Shown here one piece after another: positions 45,688-52,727 of a stretch of 52,951 nt of DNA. This stretch comes from Chloroflexota bacterium (lineage in GTDB: Bacteria; Chloroflexota; Anaerolineae; Anaerolineales; Anaerolineaceae), in the NCBI GenBank assembly GCA_012797815.1, contig JAAZOK010000075.1:32484-85434 (forward strand), in the 5' to 3' direction. The notes below the pieces were generated by a model. That model saw only the letters and a list, made by a program, of their open reading frames with translations. It was not told the DNA's origin and did not search any database. A program made the translations under genes and the position numbers. Every line of letters starts with the position of its first letter. Position 1 is the stretch's first letter.

Positions 45688-47814
45688 ATGAAAGTCAGGG
45701 CTATAACATTCCTTATCCTTTGCATACTCGTCTTTTCAAGCGCATGTTCGGCGGTTCCTCCAACTCAAGGCATGCCGACCGAGGCAGCCGTCACGCAGGC
45801 TGCCGCTTCCACCAGCCTACCCTTAACCCCCACTGTGAATCCCTATCTGTTAGACGAAGATCTGCAGCCGTACAATGCTACTATTTTTGGCGGCGGTAAT
45901 ATCGATCGCAGTTTTCTTTCGCAGGATGGATCCACAATTTTAGTGCAAACTGCACTTGGCATCTTCATCTATGATGTGGAAAGTGGAGAAGAATTGGGTT
46001 TCGCCCAGCCCTGGCTGAAAGTGGTTGCCTTTGATGGAAGATATGGATATTTTATAAAGCCAACTACAATTTCTACCAATGACGCGGGGGAGCTTACCTA
46101 TGAATACCGCAATTTGGTGCCCTTCATTTGGGATGGAAGAAGGATCGTGACCAGAGCAGGGCGCTCGTTGTATGGGGAAGATGGGGAGGAACTGGATATC
46201 TACGAATTCGTCGTCGATTCAACGAATGGTTTCATCTACGGTGTCACGCAGTATGAAAGGAGTTCGGGAGGAACTATCTTGCTGGGATCTCCCCGGCAAA
46301 AAATCCTATGGTCGCAAGACGGCGATGTGTATCTTGATCGGTTTTCTGTAAGTAATGTCTGGGATGCGGTCTTCGCACCGAATGGCAGCTACTTGGCAGT
46401 CTCGAACGTGCAGGGGGACAATGCATCGGTGAGGTTGGTGAAATTCGATAGTGAAGAAGGGGTGAGTTCTGTTCAATTGATCCAAACGCATGTCGATACG
46501 TTTATTGAAAACATGGCTTTCTCCACGAATTCCGGCAAAGTACTCTCTGCCGATTATGTCGGTGAGGTCTTTGTGTATGATATCAACGATGGCAGTAAAT
46601 ACCAGCTGGCATTGACAGCAGAAGATTGTTTTGAAGATAATAATGCTCGTCCGATTGGGAAAGCCGTTTTCCTTGATGAAGAACGGGTAGCGATCGGTAC
46701 CAACACCGGTATGTTCATTATCTGGGAACCCGCAACAGGCAGTATTGAAAAACTTAATCCGACTCAGAAACCCATCACCGACATTCATGTTTTGTCTGGT
46801 GATGAGGCACTCATCGTCACACGCGATGGTGTTACCCGTTTCACGATCAGCACAGAGGAAGTCGCCCCTGTTGTGACCCTCGAAGGTTCTAGCTGGAGCA
46901 AACTCTATGTCCGGGAGAATCGTTTATTAAGGGTAAGATCTCTGAATAATGACCGGCTGCAGTTCGATCTCTGGAATACTGAGACTTTCTCAAAAATAAG
47001 CAGTGAAGTGCTGTCTACCGAGCTCGGCATGGATTATTCGATGAATCTATGGGAGACAAACGATGGTCAGCCTGTGGTGGGATTCTCCAGATACAGTGCC
47101 GATGTCAATCCGTTGCTGTTATTGGATCAGGAAAATTTCGATGTGATCGATAGCAACTACGAGAATGAAAATCTTTCCGCCGGATTTTCCCCGGTTTATA
47201 TAGACGCATTGGATCAATATGTCGGTGTCGGGCTATCCGGTTATGAACTGGTATTTACCGGCGGCGATGACCCGCTGTTCAGAGAACCGGTTGCCCGAAA
47301 GAGTACACTGCGTGAGATCCGCAGTTTCACAGTTTCGCCTGATGGATCGATGGCATACGCGCTCACCGAGGGAATGATTCAGGCTTATGGACTGCTTGAT
47401 CCGTCACGATCCTTCACGATCACGAATTCTGGGCTCTCTTCCTACTATGGCATCGACGCGGTGAATGAGGAGAATCTGCTGCTGACCTACAACTCAAGTC
47501 GAGATACGCGTTTTGCTCTTCTCAACCTTGCCAGTCAGGAAATAACTCCGGTAGCCCTGCCCACACTGTCTGATGCGAGATTGGAAAGCATATCGAGAGG
47601 GAAGGAATATCCAGAAGGTATATATGTGTTCTGTTATGAGAATTGGGGCTTGATCGAATACGATATTCTTAACGAGCGCGCTGTGAAACAGATCTTGATG
47701 ACAAATGATCCAAGCGGTCTTTATTGGCAATATGATTTTTTCCCGGAGGAGAATCTGGTGATTGGGATGGCAGGTGGGTACTATAAACTTCAAAAAGTAA
47801 ATATTAGTTTCTAG
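45688..47814 (+). CDS. Large propeller-like lipoprotein
   Basis: 708 residues. Signal peptide and lipobox SSAC (Cys20) lead into a Thr/Pro-rich linker, then a domain of about 600 residues with short repeated strands ending in patterns like V-x-x-D-G-x-x-x-Y/L-V and F-S-x-D/N-x-S. Examples are FAPNGSYLAVSN and FTVSPDGSMAYALT, typical of WD40 or beta-propeller proteins. CAGGAG precedes the ATG. It stands alone, ended by a strong terminator. Function unknown; surface binding is likely. Confidence 0.82.
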   Translation: MKVRAITFLILCILVFSSACSAVPPTQGMPTEAAVTQAAASTSLPLTPTVNPYLLDEDLQPYNATIFGGGNIDRSFLSQDGSTILVQTALGIFIYDVESGEELGFAQPWLKVVAFDGRYGYFIKPTTISTNDAGELTYEYRNLVPFIWDGRRIVTRAGRSLYGEDGEELDIYEFVVDSTNGFIYGVTQYERSSGGTILLGSPRQKILWSQDGDVYLDRFSVSNVWDAVFAPNGSYLAVSNVQGDNASVRLVKFDSEEGVSSVQLIQTHVDTFIENMAFSTNSGKVLSADYVGEVFVYDINDGSKYQLALTAEDCFEDNNARPIGKAVFLDEERVAIGTNTGMFIIWEPATGSIEKLNPTQKPITDIHVLSGDEALIVTRDGVTRFTISTEEVAPVVTLEGSSWSKLYVRENRLLRVRSLNNDRLQFDLWNTETFSKISSEVLSTELGMDYSMNLWETNDGQPVVGFSRYSADVNPLLLLDQENFDVIDSNYENENLSAGFSPVYIDALDQYVGVGLSGYELVFTGGDDPLFREPVARKSTLREIRSFTVSPDGSMAYALTEGMIQAYGLLDPSRSFTITNSGLSSYYGIDAVNEENLLLTYNSSRDTRFALLNLASQEITPVALPTLSDARLESISRGKEYPEGIYVFCYENWGLIEYDILNERAVKQILMTNDPSGLYWQYDFFPEENLVIGMAGGYYKLQKVNISF

Positions 47815-47888: not shown

Positions 47889-48764
47889 CTATTGGTGCAT
47901 CAGCCGGATGTAGCCATCCTCCAATCCCGGCTTCACCGCTTTCGCCGACCCATCTGCCGGCTGATGTTCCCCTACCAGGCGGTAACGGATGCCATCACTC
48001 TGGTGCAACATGGATACGATCGTCAATCCCCCATCCGGCTTTTCCGTAGAGGTGGTGGTAAGTTCCCACACATGTCCTTCCGCCTTCCGGATCAGCTCGG
48101 ATGGGCTCCCTACAAACTGAATGTCGCCGTGCGAAAGTACCGCCATCTTCTGGCTGGTCAGCCCGATATCTTCCACAATGTGCGTGGAAAGCAGGATCAC
48201 ACGGTCGGCTGCCATTTTCACCAGCAAATTGCGGAAACGGATGCGCTCTTCGGGGTCGAGCCCGGCGGTCGGTTCATCCACGATCAAAATGCGCGGGTCA
48301 TTGACGATCGCCTGCGCAATGCCCACCCGGCGTTTCATGCCTCCCGAAAACCCTTTGATCTTGCGATCGGCATTTTCCTGCAAGCCGGCCAATTCCAGAA
48401 CTTCACGGATGCGTTTGCGCCGTTCCGAATCTGTGTGCATGCCCTTCAGAATAGCCATGTAATCGATGAATTCCCGTGCGCTCAGGTCGGGGTATAAGCC
48501 CAATTCCTGTGGCAGGTAGCCTAACTGGGCTTTGAGACGCTGTTTGTCCTTTTCCTGTGAAAGATCCAAGCCATTGATCACCACCTGCCCGCGGCTGGGT
48601 TGGACGATACCTGCCAGAATGCGCATCAGGGTGGTCTTGCCGGCTCCATTGGGTCCCAGCAAGCCAAACATGCCCTCCTCGATCTGCAGGGTGACTTCAT
48701 TGAGTGCCCGTACAGCCTGGTTTCCTTTCCCATAAAATTTGGTCAAATTCCGAATATCGATCAT
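47889..48764 (-). CDS. ABC-2-type transporter ATPase
   Basis: 291 residues. Walker A GPNGAGKTTLMR, signature FSGGMKRRVGIAQA, Walker B LIVDEPTAGLD and the switch histidine in LLSTHIVED are present. It is of the bacitracin/multidrug-export (CcmA-like) class. An extra C-terminal segment of about 70 residues follows the core, with STEKPDGGLTIVSML. It is encoded with three permease-like genes, so an export or membrane-stress complex is likely. Confidence 0.92.
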   Translation of the reverse strand: MIDIRNLTKFYGKGNQAVRALNEVTLQIEEGMFGLLGPNGAGKTTLMRILAGIVQPSRGQVVINGLDLSQEKDKQRLKAQLGYLPQELGLYPDLSAREFIDYMAILKGMHTDSERRKRIREVLELAGLQENADRKIKGFSGGMKRRVGIAQAIVNDPRILIVDEPTAGLDPEERIRFRNLLVKMAADRVILLSTHIVEDIGLTSQKMAVLSHGDIQFVGSPSELIRKAEGHVWELTTTSTEKPDGGLTIVSMLHQSDGIRYRLVGEHQPADGSAKAVKPGLEDGYIRLMHQ

Positions 48765-50288: not shown

Positions 50289-51146
50289 TCATGCCAGCAA
50301 CCTGACCTGCTTCTTGCCGGTGAACCACATGGCAAGCACAAAAAGCAGCAGGGAAAGGAACAAGAGATGGGATGGGCTCGCAAATTTGCCGAGAAGATTC
50401 GTCAGGCTGACAAAGCCGGCGGCATACCGACCGGAAAATTCGAGTTCCGGCATGATGCCTTTGATGACCCACAGGGAGTACGCCACCATCACCGCGTTGA
50501 CGCTTCCCCACAGCAGCGAGCAGAACAGTGCCAGAGAAGAGAGAAAAGCCATGGGCGCCATCCAATCCAGCAGCACTGCCCAGGAGAACTGGGCAACCTG
50601 CCCATGGATGAACAGGATCAACAGCGATGAGGAAAAAGTGAGCAGGATGTTATAGCCGAACACCAGCGCCAGCCGTGCCATCAGGATCTGTTGTGCCGAG
50701 ACAGGGGTCGCCAGGGTCAGTTCCAGCGCCGGGTCGTTCTGCATGCCATAGATATATGCCACCCCGGCTGCCGAGATGAAGGGGGCTAAGAAATAGACCG
50801 CGTTGACGGTTTCCATCAGCAACGCCACGATGATGCCCAGCACGGACACCAGCGCGGATGACAGCCAGATCTCCGTGCGGATCAGGGCGACCTGCGAGCG
50901 CAGGATATACCAGGCTTTCCACAGATGTCTGGCTGATTTCCTGACCGGGACCTGCCGCAGTTCAGGCGCTCGTATGGTCTGATCGGAAGCGCGGATCTCC
51001 TGCGACACGCCTTGCCATAAGCTCAGCTCCGCCCGGCAATCGGGGCACTGCCGCAGGTGCTGCGCGACCCGGGCACGCTCCTCCTCGGAGAGGGTGCCGG
51101 CAGCGTAGAAGGGGATCCATTCTTTCAGTTTCTCATGTTCGTTCAT
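50289..51146 (-). CDS. Anti-sigma zinc-finger domain fused to an ABC-2-type permease domain
   Basis: 285 residues. The first 40 are a zf-HC2 (ZAS) anti-sigma finger: HxxxCxxC with His30, Cys34 and Cys37 (QHLRQCPDCRAEL). Around 85-280 is a six-segment membrane domain, paralogous to the permease encoded at 48785 (NDPALELTLATPVSAQQILMAR). A typical anti-sigma factor has only one span, so the fusion is unusual. It is placed four bases after the sigma gene stop. It may hold the sigma factor at a transporter complex and release it when the transporter senses a signal; this is inference. Confidence 0.85.
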   Translation of the reverse strand: MNEHEKLKEWIPFYAAGTLSEEERARVAQHLRQCPDCRAELSLWQGVSQEIRASDQTIRAPELRQVPVRKSARHLWKAWYILRSQVALIRTEIWLSSALVSVLGIIVALLMETVNAVYFLAPFISAAGVAYIYGMQNDPALELTLATPVSAQQILMARLALVFGYNILLTFSSSLLILFIHGQVAQFSWAVLLDWMAPMAFLSSLALFCSLLWGSVNAVMVAYSLWVIKGIMPELEFSGRYAAGFVSLTNLLGKFASPSHLLFLSLLLFVLAMWFTGKKQVRLLA

Positions 51147-51149
51147 GGC

Positions 51150-51746
51150 TCATCCTTTAGTATCCAGTCCGTCTCTGGTTAAAATACCGCGCAGTTGTTG
51201 GCGTGCGTAGCTGAGGCGGCTCTTCACCGTCCCCAGCGGGCAGCCGCACACCTGCGCGATTTCCTTTTGATTCAAGCCCTGGTAGAAAACCAGCTCCAGC
51301 ACCTCGCGGTGTTCGGGCGACAGGCGCTGCAGCGCTTCACGCACTCTGCTGCGCTCGTCCTGCTGCGAGAGAGCTTTTTCCGGGGAGGGATCTTCATCGG
51401 CGAAATCCAGGTCATGGCTTTCGATGGATTCTGCCGGCTTCTGGCGGAATAACTGCATGCATTTATGGCGCACGATGCCCAGCAGCCAGGCTTGCACGCT
51501 GCCTTCTCCCCGGTAGGTGGCAGCCTTGCGCCACACGATCAGCATGCACTCCTGCAGGATGTCTTCCGCCAGGGCAGGATTCTCCGTCAGGCGCAGGGCG
51601 TAAGCATACAGCCGCTGCCCGTAGCGTTCATACAGGTGGTTAAATGCCATTTGATCCCCCCGGGTTATTCGTCGCAATAACCCTTCATCCTCCGACGAAG
51701 AGGGATCAAGAAAGTTGGTATGGGACATGATCCTTTCCGCTTGCAT
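51150..51746 (-). CDS. ECF sigma factor
   Basis: About 198 residues. Sigma-2 is visible in FNHLYERYGQRLYAYALRLTENPALAEDILQECMLIVW, and sigma-4 in LQRLSPEHREVLELVFYQGLNQKEIAQVCGCPLGTVKSRLSYARQQL. Start ATG 51746 (MQAERIM) has GAGG eight bases upstream. The open frame to 51824 begins with TTG and has no ribosome site. Its product probably drives this operon and is controlled by the zinc-finger protein encoded just downstream. Confidence 0.92.
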   Translation of the reverse strand: MQAERIMSHTNFLDPSSSEDEGLLRRITRGDQMAFNHLYERYGQRLYAYALRLTENPALAEDILQECMLIVWRKAATYRGEGSVQAWLLGIVRHKCMQLFRQKPAESIESHDLDFADEDPSPEKALSQQDERSRVREALQRLSPEHREVLELVFYQGLNQKEIAQVCGCPLGTVKSRLSYARQQLRGILTRDGLDTKG

Positions 51747-51974
51747 CCAGTTTACCTCGAACAACGCCGCTTTTCTGCGGCTATCTATCTGTAGTATGTC
51801 GCGCAAGGGAGAAAAAAGGTTCAAAATTCATTTCCCATACAGGGAAAAATCGTATGGGTACCACCCCTAACTGAACCTCAAATCCGGTATAAGAAGCAGG
51901 GAAGAGTTATTCAAGAGTGAGTTAATTACCCCATTAAATGAGCAAGCTCTCATGCTATCAAGTGAACCTCTCCA

Positions 51975-52727
51975 TTACGGCTCAAATAAGGAGAATTTAT
52001 CGAAATTAACAATCGAGGTATTCCCCTCACCCGGATCTGCCACACCCAGTGCGAAATCGCCTTCTTTCAATTCCGCATCCTGCACATCGAACAGCACCTC
52101 CCCGTTCACGATGAACAGGATCCGCGCGTCATCACACAACAGATACAGATTGTTGAACACCCCCGCGTCGTTCACACGGGCGCCGGTCTGCCAGCCGATC
52201 AAATCCTCATCGGGTGCTGCGATGCGACGTTTTTGGAGGCGGTAAGCGCCATCAAAACGGAAATAAGCAACATACGCCTGCACATTTTCGGTCACGTCTT
52301 TCCCTTCATCCTCATAGAGGACGCGGCAGGCAAGAAAAACCGTGGTCTGTGCGGGTGCCGTCACGGGCAGGGCAAAGGTGGTGAGGTTTGCATCATTCAC
52401 ATTTCCCAATCCCGACACAAGGAAATAATTATCCGCTGTAGAAACCTCGATCTCAATGCCGTACGGGGCTTTGCGCTGCACGATGCCCTCGCGCACGATT
52501 CTTTCAAAATCGTCCGCCAGGCTTTCGAAATTTTCAAACAATAACTGCCCTTCAGGGATATATACCGTCGCGGTGGGAGCAGGCGTGGCGCTCGGGATCA
52601 CCTGCCGGGCAGGGTTCAACACCACGGGGGTAGGTTCCATGGATCCCTCTCCTGCGCAGGCACAGAGGACCATCAGAATGATAACCAGGGATACTCCAAT
52701 GCGATAACGACTAAGCTGGATGCGCAT
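51975..52727 (-). CDS. Lipoprotein with a laminin-G/3-keto-glycoside-hydrolase-like fold
   Basis: 250 residues. A signal peptide ends in LCAC (lipobox). A Thr/Pro-rich linker (about 40-55) leads into a beta-rich domain with LLFENFESLADDFERIVREG, GRVxxxxDGAYRL-like strands (FRFDGAYRLQKRRI) and late FIVNGEVLFDVQDAELKEGDFALGV. This resembles DUF1080-type concanavalin folds that bind sugars. GGAGG precedes ATG 52727. Nothing else was found in the last 224 bases (52728-52951) apart from ATTTCCCATA, also seen before the sigma gene. Confidence 0.78.
   Translation of the reverse strand: MRIQLSRYRIGVSLVIILMVLCACAGEGSMEPTPVVLNPARQVIPSATPAPTATVYIPEGQLLFENFESLADDFERIVREGIVQRKAPYGIEIEVSTADNYFLVSGLGNVNDANLTTFALPVTAPAQTTVFLACRVLYEDEGKDVTENVQAYVAYFRFDGAYRLQKRRIAAPDEDLIGWQTGARVNDAGVFNNLYLLCDDARILFIVNGEVLFDVQDAELKEGDFALGVADPGEGNTSIVNFDKFSLFEP

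Follow-up and report, generated by a model that had tools for sequence, protein, structure and literature searches.

Can an anti-sigma factor be built on one half of an ABC exporter, and would such a protein pass the state of a transporter directly to RNA polymerase? This question is raised by a locus in the window, a stretch of 52,951 nucleotides from a draft Chloroflexota assembly (179 contigs, 2.7 Mb, about 92% complete). The first-pass annotation of this DNA described a zf-HC2 finger joined to a six-span transporter-like domain, placed directly after an ECF sigma gene and before three transporter genes, and proposed from this arrangement a link between sensor, transporter, and transcription.

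Organization of the Operon

As read directly from the DNA, five genes form a minus-strand array that runs from 51746 to 47889 with gaps of 3, 49, 9, and 20 bases, and no minus-strand terminator-like sites were found in the gaps between them. The order is ECF sigma factor, anti-sigma/half-permease fusion, permease P1, permease P2, and ABC ATPase, so that both the position of the fusion behind the sigma gene and the three transporter genes downstream are as originally described. The sigma gene (51150–51746, minus strand) encodes sigma-70 regions 2 and 4 (Pfam Sigma70_r2, E 2.7e-17; Sigma70_r4, E 1.7e-16) and starts at the ATG at 51746 or at the ATG at 51728, while the TTG at 51824 is ruled out as a start because it overlaps the promoter. 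The fusion gene (50289–51146, minus strand) encodes 285 amino acids, in which Pfam, profile, and structure-model evidence place a zinc anti-sigma domain at about residues 1–60 and the membrane half of an ABC type V exporter at about residues 66–284.

The next gene, P1 (49469–50239, minus strand), is assigned as an ABC-2 permease by its conserved place in the operon and by matches to ABC2_membrane_2 (E 5.3e-06) and ABC2_membrane_4 (E 6.3e-06), both just below the Pfam cut-off. It is followed by the ABC-2-like permease P2 (48785–49459, minus strand), which is the closest relative of the membrane half of the fusion in the genome, and by a DrrA-like ABC ATPase (47889–48764, minus strand; ABC_tran E 7.9e-35, DrrA model 197 bits, which is under the cut-off of that model). 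Outside the array, a 708-aa lipoprotein-like beta-propeller (WD40-like) protein is encoded at 45688–47814 on the plus strand, convergent with the ATPase gene; it has no homologue among the first 13 related loci, and its link to the module was therefore rejected. Upstream of the sigma promoter lies a gene for a 250-aa lipoprotein-like protein (51975–52727, minus strand) with weak carbohydrate-related domain matches.

The Zinc Anti-Sigma Domain

The N-terminus of the fusion matches zf-HC2 at residues 8–38 with E 1.4e-10 and 41.5 bits against a cut-off of 22.2. Residues H30, C34, and C37, already named in the first-pass annotation, make up the Hx3Cx2C signature and are invariant in eight close zinc-type homologues; a histidine near position 4 (H4), which that annotation missed, is kept in most homologues and is an additional likely zinc ligand. 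The zinc site of ChrR has four ligands, and H4 together with H30, C34, and C37 fits a four-ligand site of this kind.

When a profile is made from the eight close homologues, its N-terminal part hits anti-sigma factors of known structure, namely ChrR, RsiW, and RslA. In the AlphaFold2 model the signature is placed where helix 21–33 runs into helix 35–57, and the Foldseek superposition on RslA (3hug) gives an rmsd of 1.0 Å over 48 columns, a TM-score of 0.73 by target, and a probability of 0.99, with an E-value that is high for a match so short. According to these data the N-terminus is predicted to be a class I zinc anti-sigma domain, which would hold the sigma factor inactive.

The Membrane Half

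The AlphaFold2 model of the fusion, built from 35 homologues (mean pLDDT 80.8, pTM 0.65), comprises a helical N-terminal domain, a connecting helix (residues 73–89), and then six spans, with a short helix (residues 139–146) between spans 2 and 3, at the place of the coupling helix of type V exporters. The top Foldseek rows for this model are PmtCD, NosDFY, and ABCG5/G8, with weak E-values (0.026 at best). In VIA-align all 50 listed entries are ABC exporters, with Z from 12.9 to 16.3 over about 200 residues, the best match being ABCG5 (Z 16.3), with an rmsd of 4.2 over 206 residues. Pfam ABC-2 models have no match in the window fusion, and ABC2_membrane_2 is matched by 5 of the 35 homologues (best E 5.8e-06). 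Residues of about 66–284 are thus predicted by modelling to form a six-span half of a type V (ABC-2/ABCG-like) exporter, in agreement with the six-span domain proposed earlier.

The first-pass annotation also made this domain a paralogue of the neighbouring permease, which holds as far as kinship with an ABC-2-like permease is concerned but not for the permease meant: the membrane half shares 24% identity with P2 (E 3.5e-4) and the profile matches of the two are reciprocal, whereas no profile cross-match was obtained with the adjacent P1, and kinship with P1 was rejected. All 35 aligned proteins, whether or not they have the zinc motif, carry the same two residues in the membrane half, E142 of the coupling helix and R158, and this invariance argues for a lasting contact with an ATPase.

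Conservation and Variation of the Module

A search of other genomes, suggested by the first-pass annotation, returned the same fusion repeatedly. Profiles made from eight operons were used to fetch 71 distinct loci across the phylum by similarity to the fusion, and every one of them has an ECF sigma gene directly upstream; since the loci were picked by the fusion, this linkage is an independent result. An ATPase is encoded near the fusion on the same strand in 64 of the 71, and several of the other seven stop at a contig border. Presence is patchy: the fusion profile found matches in 24 of 251 genomes in the order-wide search and in 35 of 400 in the phylum-wide search, and some of these matches cover no more than the zinc finger. 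The scan of named genomes, which detects close motifs only, found 35 loci, all in Chloroflexota, and the plasmid search gave a single match, to the zinc finger only. Among isolates the module is carried by Pelolinea submarina MO-CFX1 (L099) and Longilinea arvoryzae KOME-1 (L110). Up to six fusion-profile matches per genome were seen in two genomes (G431 and G584), where the modules may have multiplied with different substrates.

The N-terminal domain is the variable part of the protein. The Hx3Cx2C motif stands ahead of the membrane part in 38 of the 71 loci and is absent in 33, which keep the sigma gene, the half-permease, and the transporter. The model of the zinc-less N-terminus shows three helices at modest confidence, with no anti-sigma factor among the matches listed. 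In some large-genome relatives HEAT repeats occupy the place of the zinc finger directly behind the ECF sigma gene, as assigned by Pfam (L089:5404-6654 and L090:6097-7476) or by resemblance (L146:4953-6059 and L147:1881-3050), and it is possible that HEAT repeats ahead of the half-permease are a new kind of anti-sigma domain. The half-permease and the transporter are retained behind different N-terminal domains, which makes it more likely that the membrane part, and hence the transporter fold, receives the signal.

Other differences concern the permeases. In three loci (L143, L144, and L090) P1 is the sole other permease found in the operon, and an exporter of two halves would there need the fusion. 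In one case a single 629-aa ORF (L080:7145-9034) contains the zinc finger, the half-permease, and P1; if real, it suggests that the fusion and P1 pair physically. A zinc-less subgroup has one of the operon permeases fused to an alpha/beta hydrolase (Abhydrolase_1, TAP-like; L116:3629-5896, L119:7840-10161, and L124:8124-11378), which suggests a link of transport with hydrolysis. The DrrA-like ATPase and the hydrolase-fused permeases of the zinc-less relatives may hint at peptide or drug-like substrates.

Promoter and Regulon

A block upstream of the sigma gene is shared between the window and its nearest relative (L095) and was also recovered when seven other loci were aligned with each other. 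The ECF-type promoter within the window (51795–51823, minus strand) has the form TGAACCTT-N16-ACATA, representing the -35 and -10 elements, and with at most one mismatch this pattern lies upstream of the sigma gene in 21 distinct loci, always with a spacing of 16, whereas shuffled sequence would give about one match. In the loci that lack the zinc motif the pattern TGAACC-N14-TCGTA is found in 11 of 14, with the same -35 and a different -10.

An exact copy of TGAACCTT-N16-ACATA is present at a single place in the 2.7-Mb genome, 51823–51795 of the window. When up to three mismatches were allowed across the whole genome, one site with two and four sites with three were found, against one and one in the reversed control, so a second target is unsupported. 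The pattern looks like that of an autoregulated ECF operon, and as far as sequence can indicate the sigma module is self-regulating and probably serves only its own exporter; against a one-operon regulon it must be noted that a second target promoter could be missing from an assembly of about 92% completeness. The anatomy of the module and its autoregulation are held with very high confidence.

Proposed Mechanism and Rival Explanations

The preferred reading, to which we give a probability of roughly 0.55, is that of a sigma module complete in itself and dedicated to a single exporter, with the fusion coupled to the transporter. The anti-sigma domain would hold the sigma factor at the membrane, while the half-permease would dock with P1, the ATPase, or both, in the manner of its paralogue P2. 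The substrate or nucleotide state of that complex would shift its cytoplasmic face, to which the connecting helix ties the anti-sigma domain, and sigma would be freed. Free sigma would then transcribe its own operon, supplying extra exporter and extra anti-sigma factor, and once the substrate had been cleared it would be recaptured and the loop closed. We infer that sigma is bound, that a complex forms with P1 or the ATPase, and that the transport cycle governs when sigma is released; coupling is favoured because of the sigma linkage in 71 of 71 loci, the self-directed promoter, the invariant coupling-helix residues, and the operons with P1 alone. The link between sensor, transporter, and transcription proposed in the first-pass annotation fits the same observations, although the neighbour that it named as paralogue was the wrong one. 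Against coupling stand the weak Foldseek E-values (best 0.026), the faster evolution of the fusion than of P1, P2, and the ATPase in comparison with the nearest relative, and the presence of P2 in most operons, where the fusion may not be needed for a complete exporter. A stronger form is put forward tentatively, being possible but doubtful: the fusion would be a true working exporter half, one of the subunits of the ABC transporter would itself be the anti-sigma factor, RNA polymerase would be informed directly by each pump complex of its substrate or ATP state, and P2 and the fusion would compete for P1 and the ATPase as the pump and the signalling form.

The fusion could be thought to result from a frameshift or misassembly that joined two genes, since the window comes from a draft of 179 contigs, but this outcome, which the first-pass annotation had named as one that would overturn its reading, was not found and has a negligible probability. 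The nearest relative has the same continuous ORF with 81% identity, the ORF is also unbroken in assemblies made independently, among them the complete chromosome of Pelolinea submarina and the assembly of Longilinea arvoryzae, and dN/dS of the fusion against the nearest relative is 0.21 (0.06–0.12 for P1, P2, and the ATPase), which indicates purifying selection across the whole gene. A rather unlikely explanation, although a much more substantial one, is that the membrane half is a captured copy of P2 that serves as a mere anchor or as a stand-alone receptor of membrane or drug stress, the ABC transporter being its regulated output and not coupled to it. P1, P2, and the ATPase could suffice for export in most operons, and there are other multi-span anti-sigma factors that are unrelated to transporters. 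A precedent is also given by MibW of microbisporicin producers, which is thought to respond to the peptide or to envelope stress, with separate ABC transporters as the output (PMC4973701). The invariance of E142 and R158, the operons in which P1 is the sole other permease, and the natural fusion with P1 in L080 speak against a captured anchor or receptor.

Two further explanations are both improbable. The zinc finger may be an oxidant or metal sensor as in ChrR or RsrA, with the membrane half only as a tether, which accords with an HHCC-type site near the N-terminus and with ChrR among the best solved relatives; however, the 33 loci of 71 without Hx3Cx2C retain the sigma gene, the half-permease, and the transporter. 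Alternatively, sigma may be freed by stress-induced cleavage in or near the membrane, as with RsiW. The anti-sigma domain does match RsiW in sequence, and ECF sigma factors are commonly released by proteolysis (PMC8999054), but the model has only short loops between the spans and no extracytoplasmic sensor domain, and the conserved operon contains no protease gene.

Comparison with Known Systems

Classes of paired ECF sigma factors and class I anti-sigma factors have been described (PMC7406223), and membrane anti-sigma factors, zinc anti-sigma domains, and ECF operons with ABC transporters are already known (PMC7406223, PMC8999054, PMC4973701). In the literature searched, outside whose scope lay the main ECF classification, which may number this group without noting its fold, no anti-sigma factor with an ABC exporter half as its membrane part was found. 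The architecture is thus apparently an undescribed variant of ECF/anti-sigma systems. In many ECF groups the signal of the anti-sigma factor is unknown, while here the candidate sensor is a recognizable transporter fold, and a direct coupling of the gene switch to the pump is likely. As the regulon looks like one operon and there are two cultured carriers (Pelolinea submarina and Longilinea arvoryzae), transporter-gated transcription could be tested in a small reconstituted system, and parts of the module could serve as a self-regulated efflux switch.

The sigY-yxlCDEFG operon of Bacillus subtilis also combines an ECF sigma gene with negative regulators and an ABC exporter, a likeness drawn by description. 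Its regulators, however, are separate small proteins, and we know of no permease fusion in it; YxlFG is listed as an ABC exporter of unknown function (PMC11466899). MibX/MibW of microbisporicin is alike in having an ECF sigma factor, a co-transcribed membrane anti-sigma factor, and target genes that include ABC transporters, but it controls a whole lantibiotic cluster (PMC4973701). The LytTR Regulatory Systems, in which a transcription regulator and a membrane inhibitor are autoregulated and some operons contain ABC genes (PMC6193735), offer an analogy only, since both the regulator family and the membrane protein differ. Within Chloroflexi, the ECF271 group has zinc anti-sigma factors (PMC8999054), which, as compared by description, are soluble, unlike the membrane fusion of the window.

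With the type V ABC exporters NosDFY, PmtCD, and the ABCG family the fusion shares the predicted fold, the number of spans, and the coupling helix, but here one half bears a putative anti-sigma domain on a connecting helix. With the ChrR, RsiW, and RslA pairs the module has in common the zinc anti-sigma fold, the adjoining ECF sigma gene, the membrane location, and the autoregulated promoter; it differs from them in its membrane part, a predicted half of an ABC exporter, and in an output that seems limited to the one operon encoding this exporter.
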